This document shows, piece after piece, positions 15,426 to 58,600 of a stretch of 58,681 nt of DNA. The translations under genes were made by a program, and so were the position numbers. Below the pieces are notes generated by a model that ran no database searches, was not told the DNA's origin, and saw only the letters and a program-made list of their open reading frames with translations. Numbering within the stretch: position 1 is the first letter of the stretch; every line of letters begins with the position of its first letter. The stretch covers positions 1 to 58,681 of the forward strand of contig JALTWS010000019.1 in assembly GCA_027048495.1 (NCBI GenBank), given 5' to 3'. Origin of the DNA: Candidatus Azambacteria bacterium. GTDB lineage: Bacteria > Patescibacteriota > Minisyncoccia > GWC2-36-17 > M10-OD1-4.

Positions 15426-15474
15426 TGTAGAGGTTCAACCTCTATAAAAAAGTTGTAGAGGTTGAACCTCTACA
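15426..15474. repeat. REP-like palindrome pair (BIME-like), left flank of RAYT
   Basis: TGTAGAGGTTcAACCTCTA-taaaaaagt-TGTAGAGGTTgAACCTCTACA; two palindromic units in inverted orientation (central C vs G). Confidence 0.85.
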
Positions 15475-15497
15475 GATATTATTGGTATAATTTTGTT

Positions 15498-16190
15498 ATG
15501 GGAAATAGAAAAATAAAATTTGTAAATGGAGAATTTTACCACGTTTATAATCGGGGAGTTGATAAGCGTGATATTTTTTTAGATAAGTATGACATAGATA
15601 GATTTTTACAAAGTATGATTGAATTTAATAGAGTAAGCCCAACAGGAGGTATGTACATAATTAGCAGACTTAAACAAAATAGAGGTTCAACCTCTACGAT
15701 TTTAAAAAGTAAACTTGTAGAAGATGAAGCTAAGTTAGTGAATGTTATAGCATATTGTCTTAATCCTAATCATTATCATTTTATTTTAGAACAAGTTACT
15801 GATGGCGGTATAAGTGAATTTATGAAAAGATTAAATGGCGGATATACATATTATTTTAACGAAAAAAATGAACGCTCAGGTTCTTTGTTTCAGGGGAGAT
15901 TTAAAGCTGTTCATATAAATTCCAATGAATATTTATTGTATTTGAGTTCTTATGTTAATTTAAATTATAAAGTCCACCAACTTAGCGGTCCGACCGCTAA
16001 GTTGGTGGTTTCAAGTTGGAATGAGTATGTTAAAGATACGGATTTTGAAGTTTGTGACAAAAATATAATATTGAGTCAATTTAGCAACAAAAAGGATTAT
16101 GCAAAATTTGCTGAAAAATCTTTGAAGTCTATTTTAGAAAGGGGGGAGAAAGATTCTAATTTAAATAAAATTTTATTTGATAAGAATTAA
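15498..16190 (+). CDS. REP-associated tyrosine transposase (Y1_Tnp / RAYT family)
   Basis: EFYHVYNRGVDKRDIFLDKYDIDRFLQ..., AYCLNPNHYHFILEQVTDGGISEFMKRLNGGYTYYFNEKNERSGSLFQGRFKAVHI. Confidence 0.93.
   Translation: MGNRKIKFVNGEFYHVYNRGVDKRDIFLDKYDIDRFLQSMIEFNRVSPTGGMYIISRLKQNRGSTSTILKSKLVEDEAKLVNVIAYCLNPNHYHFILEQVTDGGISEFMKRLNGGYTYYFNEKNERSGSLFQGRFKAVHINSNEYLLYLSSYVNLNYKVHQLSGPTAKLVVSSWNEYVKDTDFEVCDKNIILSQFSNKKDYAKFAEKSLKSILERGEKDSNLNKILFDKN
15680..15696. repeat. REP-like unit inside the RAYT coding sequence, in frame
   Basis: TAGAGGTTCAACCTCTA encoding part of QNRGSTST. Confidence 0.85.
15974..16008. repeat. Second, unrelated 35-bp palindrome inside the RAYT coding sequence, in frame
   Basis: CCACCAACTTAGCGGT-ccg-ACCGCTAAGTTGGTGG, encoding HQLSGPTAKLVV. 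Confidence 0.85.
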
Positions 16191-18439: not shown

Positions 18440-18470
18440 TTTTTTGTTGATTTATGATACTATAAAAGTA

Positions 18471-18650
18471 TCCCCGCCCGGCGTTAATGAACCAAGGTCA
18501 ACTATGTCTTTTTGGGATCCTTACATTGCTTTAGTTCGCTGGTTCGTCCGGGGGCTAAAGTTGCGGGAACCCACTTGGACGTTTGCTTGCGTTCATCAAT
18601 GTTGAGGCGGGGAATAAAAATACTCCGGATTTGTATCCGGAGTATTTTTA
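18471..18650 (+). ncRNA. Structured non-coding RNA candidate (long hairpin; 6S-like possible) with terminator
   Basis: CCCCGCC(18472..18478)/GGCGGGG(18606..18612), then CGGCGUUAAUGAAC pairing with GUUCAUCAAUGUUG; terminator AAAAATACTCCGGAT-ttgt-ATCCGGAGTATTTTT at 18616..18649; TATAAA about 10 nt before the 5' end. Confidence 0.6.
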
Positions 18651-18836
18651 TTTGTCTTGTTTGTGAATGCTTCTTATACATTTGGTGCAGGCTTTTATTC
18701 TTTTTTTGCCTATTGTTACCCATTGTAAGTTTGGAAATTTCCTTCTTTTTGTGGTTGGATTGTAGTTTCCGCGAAGCTTCACCAAAACTGTATTTACTTT
18801 TGAAGTTTTTTCACAAATTGGGCAAATTCTTGACAT
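18648..18836 (-). CDS. rpmB: 50S ribosomal protein L28
   Basis: MSRICPICEKTSKVNT...NYNPTTKRRKFPNLQWVTIGKKRIKACTKCIRSI. Confidence 0.88.
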   Translation of the reverse strand: MSRICPICEKTSKVNTVLVKLRGNYNPTTKRRKFPNLQWVTIGKKRIKACTKCIRSIHKQDK

Positions 18837-46238: not shown

Positions 46239-46650
46239 AAAACAGATCAAGGCAAAAAGCGCAATCGCCTGAGCTTTTTTAAAAAAGCAGGGGAGGAAAG
46301 TCCGGACACCTATTTTCGCTTTTTGCGAAATAAACGCAGCGGCTAACGGCCGTCGCACTAGCAGTCAGGCACTAGTTGCTGGTTGCTGGTGTAGAGGTGC
46401 GAACAGAGACGCCACGAGCCGAAAGGCAAGTGGGCTCCAACTTGGAGTAGTCCTTGTGGCAACACAAGGGGTGAAACGGCTAAATCCTTGCGGGGTGCAA
46501 GACAGTATCCTGGCGCCTTTTGTTTTTACAAAAAAGGTGCTGGGGGTGGTCGCATGAGCTTGCCAGTAATGGCAAGCCAAGATAAATGATTGCGGCTTTG
46601 CGTCAGCAAAGTACAGAATCCGGCTTACATTTTTGTCTTGATCTGTTTTG
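46239..46650 (+). ncRNA. rnpB: RNase P RNA
   Basis: gGAGGAAAGTCCGGACacc and ACAGAATCCGGCTTACA (P4 core); terminal P1 helix AAAACAGATCAAGgcaa / TTGTCTTGATCTGTTTT. Confidence 0.96.
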
Positions 46651-56215: not shown

Positions 56216-56392
56216 CTTTTTTTCTTTGTCCTTTATTTCTTCTCTTACTATTTTTACATTGGGGGGAGCTTTTATTGATATTCTTGCGCTGTTTTTTTGA
56301 ATTTTTACCACTGTTACTATGATTTCATTTTCTCCTTCTCCAATGATGATGCTTTCACCCGGTCTTCTTGTAAGAACTAAAAATCCACTCAT
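56213..56392 (-). CDS. csrA: Carbon storage regulator CsrA (59 aa, below ORF-track cut-off)
   Basis: MSGFLVLTRRPGESIIIGEGENEIIVTVVKIQKNSARISIKAPPNVKIVREEIKDKEKK*; canonical LTRRxGES and IxAPxxVxIxREEI motifs; RBS aaggagga. Confidence 0.93.
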   Translation of the reverse strand: MSGFLVLTRRPGESIIIGEGENEIIVTVVKIQKNSARISIKAPPNVKIVREEIKDKEKK

Positions 56393-56442
56393 TGGATTTA
56401 TCCTCCTTGGATTTGATTTGCCACATTAGATTATAATAGCAA

Positions 56443-56487
56443 AACATTAGTGTTAATGTTGACATATTTTGTTTTTTATGTTAGAAA
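56443..56487. promoter_or_regulatory. Divergent promoter region csrA / structured RNA with inverted repeat
   Basis: AACATTA-gtgt-TAATGTT (56443..56460); plus-strand TTGACA-17-TAGAAA with TG extension; minus-strand TATAAT for csrA. Confidence 0.55.
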
Positions 56488-56493
56488 AATTTA

Positions 56494-56745
56494 AGTTGTT
56501 CATTTCTCGGAAAGGTGATGCTGGCAGTTTTTGCAGGACGGATGCAGGATGCGAGTATGTCTGTTTTTGCGAGCTCTTAGGCTTGCATAAGAGAGCAATT
56601 ATTAATCCTCTTATTTTAAAGACCAGGGGCTAAAATCCCTGGCTGCTCTCCGGACAGAGGCGCCTGCAGGCGCTGTAAGAACAAAAGCATTGCCTTTCCG
56701 AACCAAATTTCAAAACCTCGCTTGCTAAAGAAGCGGGGTTTTTCT
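56494..56745 (+). ncRNA. Structured non-coding RNA, about 250 nt including terminator
   Basis: 15-bp closing stem CGGAAAGGUGAUGCU (56508..56522) / AGCAUUGCCUUUCCG (56686..56700); internal hairpins; terminator AAACCTCGCTT-gctaaag-AAGCGGGGTTTTT; no good ORF. Confidence 0.72.
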
Positions 56746-56794
56746 TTTTTTGGTCTTTGTTTTTTGTAAAATTTATGTATAATCAATCATAAAT

Positions 56795-58600
56795 ATGAAC
56801 GAAAAAGACAAGCAAAATTTAATAAGAAACTTTTGTATTATAGCTCACATTGATCACGGAAAATCTACGCTTTCTGACAGATTGCTTGAGGAGACAAAAA
56901 CGATTGAAAAAAGAAAGATGCAGGATCAGCTTTTGGATACCATGAGTTTGGAAAGGGAAAGGGGGATAACAATAAAAATGCAGCCGGTGGTTATGAATTA
57001 CAAGCACAAAGATGGCAAAGAATACATTTTAAATTTAATAGACACCCCCGGGCATGTTGATTTTTCTTATGAGGTTTCCCGTTCGCTTGCGGCAGTTGAA
57101 GGAGCAGTTTTGCTTGTTGATGCAACCAAAGGTATGCAGGCGCAAACCCTTGCGGTGCTTGAGCAGGCGCAAAAGCAAAACTTAAAGATACTTCCTGCTG
57201 TAAACAAAATTGACTTGCCAAATGCAATGCCAGAAAAAGTAAAAGAAGAGATAGCAAATTTTCTTAATATAGATAAAAATGATGTTTTGGAAATATCGGG
57301 AAAAACTGGAAAAGGAGTGCCTTTGCTTTTAGAAAAAATAATAAGCGAGATTCCAGCTCCCAAAGGCAATCCAAATTCTCCGCTTAAAGCGCTTATTTTT
57401 GACTCTGTTTTTGATTCTTTTAAGGGTGTAATAGCAAATGTTAGGATAGTGGACGGTTTTGTAAAAAGGCATGATAAAATAAAGTCTATGATTTTAAAGT
57501 CAGAAGCCGAAGTTTTAGAGTGTGGAGTATTTAAGCCAGATTTAATTGAAAAGCCAGAACTTTTAACAGGGCAGATAGGGTATATTGCAACTGGACTTAA
57601 AGAAATAGACAAGGTAAGGGTGGGAGATACTATAACACTAAAAAACAATCCGGCAGAAAAAAACCTTCCCGGATATAAAGAAGTTCAACCTGTTGTTTTT
57701 GCTTCTTTTTTTCCGCAGGATGCTGACGATTATGATCTTTTAAGAGACGGTCTTTTGAAGCTTAGGCTGAATGACTCTTCTTTGTCTTTTGAGCCGGAAC
57801 AGTCCGAAGCTTTTGGCAGGGGTTTTCGTTGTGGTTTTTTGGGCATGTTGCATATGGACATTGTAAGAGAAAGATTAAAAAGAGAACATAACATAGAACC
57901 GCTAATAACTATACCCTCAGTATCTTACAGTATATTGCTAAAAAATGGAGAAGAGAGGCTGGTTTATTCTCCGTCTCAGATGCCTGATCCTGCAAATATA
58001 AAAGAAAGCAGGGAGCCTTATGTAAAGCTTGAGATAATGACAAAAAGCGAATATCTGGGGTCTATTATGACTCTTTTGGATAAAGTTCGCGGAGTTTATA
58101 AAGACACACAATATTTAACTGAAGAAAAAGTTTTGCTTGTTTATGAAGCTCCTTTGTCTGAGATTATCGTTGATTTTTTTGATGATTTAAAGTCGGTAAC
58201 CTCAGGATACGCTTCTTTAAATTATGAGCTTTTAGGTTTTAAGCCTGCTGAGCTTGTAAAAATGGATATACTGGTCGCAGGGGAAAGAGTGGAGGCGCTT
58301 TCAAGGATTGTAGTAAAAAGCAAGGCTCAAGAGATTGGAAGAATGATGGTGTCAAAACTAAAAGATATAATACCAAGGCAGCTTTTTGCTGTGTCTTTGC
58401 AGGCTGCGGTTGGATCAAAAATACTGGCAAGAGAAGATATATCTGCCCTAAGAAAAGATGTAACTGGATATCTTTATGGTGGAGATGTAACCAGAAAAAA
58501 GAAGCTTTTGGAAAAGCAAAAAAAAGGAAAAAAGAAAATGAAACAAAGAGGAAAAGTAAATATTCCACCAGAAGTTTATTTTAAGGTTTTGAAAAAATAA
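56795..58600 (+). CDS. lepA: Elongation factor 4 (LepA)
   Basis: [53 protein letters not shown]-terminal KKMKQRGKVNIPPEVYFKVLK. Confidence 0.97.
   Translation: MNEKDKQNLIRNFCIIAHIDHGKSTLSDRLLEETKTIEKRKMQDQLLDTMSLERERGITIKMQPVVMNYKHKDGKEYILNLIDTPGHVDFSYEVSRSLAAVEGAVLLVDATKGMQAQTLAVLEQAQKQNLKILPAVNKIDLPNAMPEKVKEEIANFLNIDKNDVLEISGKTGKGVPLLLEKIISEIPAPKGNPNSPLKALIFDSVFDSFKGVIANVRIVDGFVKRHDKIKSMILKSEAEVLECGVFKPDLIEKPELLTGQIGYIATGLKEIDKVRVGDTITLKNNPAEKNLPGYKEVQPVVFASFFPQDADDYDLLRDGLLKLRLNDSSLSFEPEQSEAFGRGFRCGFLGMLHMDIVRERLKREHNIEPLITIPSVSYSILLKNGEERLVYSPSQMPDPANIKESREPYVKLEIMTKSEYLGSIMTLLDKVRGVYKDTQYLTEEKVLLVYEAPLSEIIVDFFDDLKSVTSGYASLNYELLGFKPAELVKMDILVAGERVEALSRIVVKSKAQEIGRMMVSKLKDIIPRQLFAVSLQAAVGSKILAREDISALRKDVTGYLYGGDVTRKKKLLEKQKKGKKKMKQRGKVNIPPEVYFKVLKK

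Follow-up and report, generated by a model that had tools for sequence, protein, structure and literature searches.

We find that an intergenic interval of the window (the whole stretch of DNA analysed here, 58,681 nucleotides in length) probably holds an autonomous, lineage-specific gene for a structured small RNA, most likely one that acts in trans. The gene lies between csrA and lepA and has its own promoter and terminator motifs around a strongly folded body. From its sequence, the host appears to be a Candidatus Azambacteria-like genome of the Paceibacteria (Patescibacteria), with an assembly of 803 kb that is 98.6% complete. The best matches of the MurJ protein encoded in the window are to Parcubacteria group bacterium M6-OD1-1 (70%) and to several Candidatus Azambacteria (53 to 73%). 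The window also carries a divergent 6S RNA, and the Paceibacteria 6S family to which it belongs is the more valuable result of this work.

Promoter, terminator, and neighboring genes

The RNA locus has the signals of a separate transcription unit. As the earlier note had claimed, a TTGACA hexamer (56459–56464) is followed, after a 17-nt spacer, by TAGAAA (56482–56487). The latter is an extended −10 element, with TG one base 5′ of it, and the predicted RNA start is at about 56494. TAGAAA agrees with the consensus at four of six positions and is weak at the last, which is why this promoter is absent from the list produced by the automated promoter scan. The intrinsic terminator, likewise claimed before, is also present, and its stem is followed by a run of T residues. 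The GC content of the locus is 0.49, against 0.33 for the whole window. There is no convincing reading frame in the locus; the longest on the plus strand spans 54 amino acids from a TTG codon and crosses the promoter region. The features of an autonomous intergenic small RNA (its own promoter, a structured body, an intrinsic terminator, and no coding frame) are thus all found here, albeit with an imperfect −10 hexamer. Promoter, fold, and terminator together support the earlier description of an autonomous structured RNA gene adjoining csrA.

Upstream of the RNA and csrA are a membrane-type open reading frame (ORF) without a name and then murJ. The csrA gene is present in this genome and undetected in the eight other genomes of the order. 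It is rare throughout the class, being found in 25 of 387 genomes at an E value of 0.001 and in 14 of the 387 above the Pfam cut-off. A perfect inverted repeat, AACATTAGTGTTAATGTT (56443–56460), lies between the divergent promoters of csrA and the RNA and might be an operator. As an operator common to both genes it was rejected: this is the sole perfect copy in the window, and matches with up to two mismatches occur at chance frequency.

Table 1. Features discussed in the text. Positions refer to the window unless a contig or locus is named.
Feature	Position	Strand	Basis
Divergent 6S RNA of this genome	18469–18614	+	Class model R2, 38 bits
RNase P RNA	46249–46643		Rfam
csrA, divergent neighbor of the RNA	56216–56392	−	Pfam PF02599, 64.3 bits
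Putative RNA promoter: TTGACA, 17-nt spacer, TAGAAA with upstream TG	56459–56487	+	Read from sequence
Gene of the structured RNA, about 215 nt without the terminator	56494–56745	+	Fold z, window fold scan, Rfam-negative
Closing stem, 16 bp, 5′ arm	56507–56522	+	Predicted fold
Three GGA motifs (56536, 56540, 56547), in stem or internal loop	56536–56549	+	Cluster P 0.05 (picked post hoc)
Apical hairpin, arms UGCGAGCU and GGCUUGCA	56568–56587	+	Minimum-energy fold
Apical hairpin, arms CCAGGGG and UCCCUGG	56623–56642	+	Minimum-energy fold
Closing stem, 16 bp, 3′ arm	56686–56701	+	Predicted fold
RNA terminator, intrinsic (12-bp stem and T run)	56712–56742	+	Terminator scan
lepA, downstream neighbor, same strand as the RNA	56795–58600	+	ORF; 84% identity to relative
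tmRNA of this genome (RF00023)	G000:C18:3431–3818		171 bits
Rod-like RNA between murJ and lepA, G002 (family-level relative)	L035:1009–1290		z −5.1
Rod-like RNA between murJ and lepA, G004 (same order)	L052:1195–1430		z −4.6

Strength and shape of the fold

The interval 56492–56745 folds at −108 kcal/mol (z −6.6), and the closed domain within it (56506–56703) at −91.8 kcal/mol (z −7.5). Because the boundaries of the closed domain had been chosen by eye, we scanned the whole window without bias, using 198-nt windows on both strands in 6-base steps with a correction for composition. The RNA locus (56506) ranks fourth among non-overlapping places, behind 18458, 16064 (minus strand), and 19616 and directly ahead of RNase P RNA (46496). 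It is folded about as strongly as the known structured RNAs of the window. Two loci in the window have stems of 14 bp or more with the span of the closing stem, compared with 0.25 hits per shuffled window.

The minimum-energy fold is a rod with a branched tip above a long closing stem. The closing stem described in the earlier note (15 bp) is present, with 16 bp in the predicted fold. Three internal hairpins had also been described, of which CCAGGG/CCCUGG recurs in the minimum-energy fold and the other two do not. The place of CUCUUA/UAAGAG is taken by UGCGAGC/GCUUGCA, while the strand of GCGCCUGCAGGCGC pairs preferentially with the GCAGGAUGC side of the longer rod, and a fold forced to contain the GCGCC hairpin is 7.7 kcal/mol less stable.

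Among the other strong folds of the scan, the second (16064, minus strand) and third (19616, plus strand) are two more intervals with strong structure, and the 19616 interval covers palindromic intergenic hairpins. An ORF that resembles, as judged by eye, a REP-associated (Y1-type) transposase lies at 15462–16190 on the plus strand, and a long inverted repeat (15451–15701) overlaps its 5′ end.

A divergent 6S RNA family in Paceibacteria

Judging from sequence comparison, Paceibacteria carry a divergent, covariation-supported 6S family that is mostly missed by Rfam. The Rfam 6S model, RF00013, has no match in this genome at an E value of 0.001, and the 6S RNA of the window is missed by Rfam even at E values up to 1. 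Across 191 class genomes, RF00013 matches above the cut-off in one and weakly in seven more. The eight matching sequences have in common GGGAG(Y)CU...UGCGGRCACCCACYUGG, with small departures. A covariance model built from these eight Paceibacteria sequences, R2, was run over 289 class genomes and matches 150 of them at E values of 1 or less; the weakest of these matches are uncertain.

The elements GGGA and ACCCAC are invariant in 31 class sequences, that of the window included. In an alignment of 31 sequences fitted to the R2 structure, 89.7% of cells pair, and both-side changes number 211, against 69 in shuffles. This pairing signal is destroyed when the partners are slid by one column. A consensus fold of the 31 sequences predicted without the R2 structure has nearly the same helices. 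The 6S RNA of the window folds with a z of −7.5, covers the first-ranked place of the fold scan (18458), and has a terminator just 3′ of it, at about 18620–18655.

In a partial literature search, we found nothing that joins 6S RNA with Patescibacteria apart from a paper on the signal recognition particle (SRP), in which the word 6S is used for SRP RNA (PMC8321541); the family may therefore already be published. It matters for the annotation of transcription control in Paceibacteria.

Search for relatives of the RNA

An Rfam scan had been named in the earlier note as a check. At both gathering and permissive thresholds it gives nothing credible at 56494–56745, and neither 6S nor any other family is assigned to the locus. 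A single-sequence covariance model, R1, run over 289 class genomes, finds only itself. Covariation across relatives, also named as a check, therefore lends the fold no support, because R1 finds no homologue in the 288 other genomes. DNA similarity to 95 relatives is confined to AT-rich fragments. On a contig of Parcubacteria group bacterium M6-OD1-1, DUF3800-V RNA (RF02964) is matched at 75.6 bits (L086:1296–1391, minus strand).

Two other genomes of the order also have a rod-like RNA in the murJ-lepA interval (Table 1). The order in the family-level relative G002 (L035, L092) is murJ, a perfect TTGACA-17-TATAAT promoter, the rod RNA, a terminator, and lepA. Sequence similarity between the window RNA and the rod RNAs of G002 and G004 is at chance level. 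R1 scores 16.9 bits on the G002 RNA (with an E value of 1.2e-4 when only that short stretch is searched) and 3.3 bits on that of G004. Since an unrelated plain hairpin in the G002 locus scores equally, at 17 to 18 bits, we do not count the G002 score as homology. Structural homology to these two RNAs was rejected on these grounds, and homology of the window RNA to the G002 rod RNA is unproven.

It is very doubtful that the RNA is the first member of a new family of structured RNAs in the Azambacteria group, retained in the murJ-lepA interval almost without sequence conservation. In its strongest form, this proposal would have the RNA fill in for a housekeeping RNA that otherwise goes undetected in these reduced genomes; in this genome, SRP RNA was not found. 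The bacterial small SRP RNA model (RF00169) has no match at E values up to 1 in this 98.6% complete genome, and it matches 13 of 14 control genomes. The missing match may stem from a divergent SRP RNA at another locus, from a gap in the assembly, or from a lineage trait.

Interpretation and alternatives

We infer that the RNA is transcribed and acts in trans. Transcription from the RNA's own sigma-70-type promoter would begin near 56494 and stop at the terminator, and the transcript of about 215 nt would fold as a long, stable rod whose tip is branched. This rod might protect the RNA from decay, and the exposed tip and 5′ leader (AGUUGUUCAUUUC, AUUAUUAAUCC) would be the candidate sites of contact with target mRNAs or a protein. 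Such an RNA would be specific to its lineage, or would evolve too fast to be recognized in relatives. If expressed, it would be an uncatalogued regulatory RNA in the Patescibacteria, for which little RNA regulation has been described, and would be among the few regulatory RNAs in its class that adjoin csrA.

A role in cis, in which the RNA would be a lepA leader or attenuator that uses the terminator as its switch, is unlikely. The RNA does lie directly upstream of lepA on the same strand, and G002 and G004 likewise have structured RNAs ahead of lepA. However, it is not simply a lepA leader, because lepA has a separate TATAAT directly before it, as it also does in a relative without the RNA (L034/L086). 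Furthermore, lepA has another upstream neighbor, or abuts murJ directly, in most class members viewed. It is quite unlikely that, instead of an RNA gene, the locus holds a chance inverted repeat or a decayed mobile element. Its near-palindromic character, with the antisense strand also scoring 30.7 bits against R1, would fit such an origin, as would its location within an interval that varies between relatives. Yet the sense strand is far better folded than the antisense (rank 32 versus 671 among 19498 windows), and the promoter and terminator are correctly placed around the RNA. It is also single copy in its genome, short AT-rich matches apart; phage records contain no match to it, and plasmid records contain one short, marginal match confined to the terminator region.

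The earlier note had proposed a CsrB-like RNA that sequesters the neighboring CsrA through GGA motifs, which now seems quite improbable. The divergent arrangement with csrA favors this proposal, as does the presence of three GGA motifs within 14 nt, AGGAU among them (a cluster picked post hoc, P 0.05). The family-level relative G001 has murJ, a small ORF, a terminator, and lepA (L086), with neither csrA nor the RNA at the corresponding site. This evidence is circumstantial, since a single comparison cannot separate joint gain, joint loss, or coincidence. Against a CsrB-like function, GGA is not enriched (5 versus 3.5 expected, P 0.27), in agreement with the earlier remark that a count of about five is not strongly raised. 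None of the five motifs lies in an apical loop of the predicted fold; all are in stems or internal loops. A survey of csrA neighborhoods elsewhere in the class, made by fold energies and GGA counts rather than as a homology test, revealed no obvious partner RNA in the intergenic regions viewed, and a csrA-RNA partnership beyond this genome was rejected. Moreover, G002 has its rod RNA even though no csrA is detected in that genome. The exposed CCUCUU was considered as a pairing partner of the csrA ribosome-binding site and likewise rejected, as that site is not favored (rank 39 of 66 genes).

The RNA is not the 6S RNA of this genome, the other identity that the earlier note had considered. Some bacteria have two 6S RNAs, and the rod shape, long closing stem, and closed domain of about 195 nt would suit a second, highly divergent RNA of this type that binds RNA polymerase. 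That a second, unrecognizable 6S RNA is encoded here is nonetheless highly unlikely. The genome already has a clear 6S RNA at 18469–18614, and RF00013 has no match at the RNA locus at E values up to 5. The class model R2 gives at most 6 bits on the RNA with all filters off. The class-invariant GGGA and ACCCAC elements of the central bubble are missing from 56494–56745, whose minimum-energy fold also lacks a large central bubble.

Comparison with known RNA classes

An autonomous, lineage-specific small RNA, as we interpret the locus, shares general traits with several known RNAs. Like tmRNA, it would be a structured stable RNA. The tmRNA identity was rejected, as ARAGORN finds none in the window and the tmRNA of the genome is on another contig. 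It resembles the bacterial small SRP RNA (RF00169) in being a rod-shaped, presumably stable RNA, and differs in that SRP families have no match at 56380–56800 at E values up to 5. We do not assign it an SRP role because it is without a recognizable GGAA-tetraloop Ffh-binding hairpin.

CsrB/CsrC/RsmZ-type RNAs carry many GGA loops. The RNA described here is similarly intergenic, ends at an intrinsic terminator, adjoins csrA, and has a few GGA motifs, although these are neither enriched nor placed in hairpin loops. It differs from 6S RNA (RF00013 and the Paceibacteria family R2) by its lack of the GGGA/ACCCAC elements and large bubble, while having in common with it a rod of about 200 nt, a long closing stem, and its own promoter and terminator.
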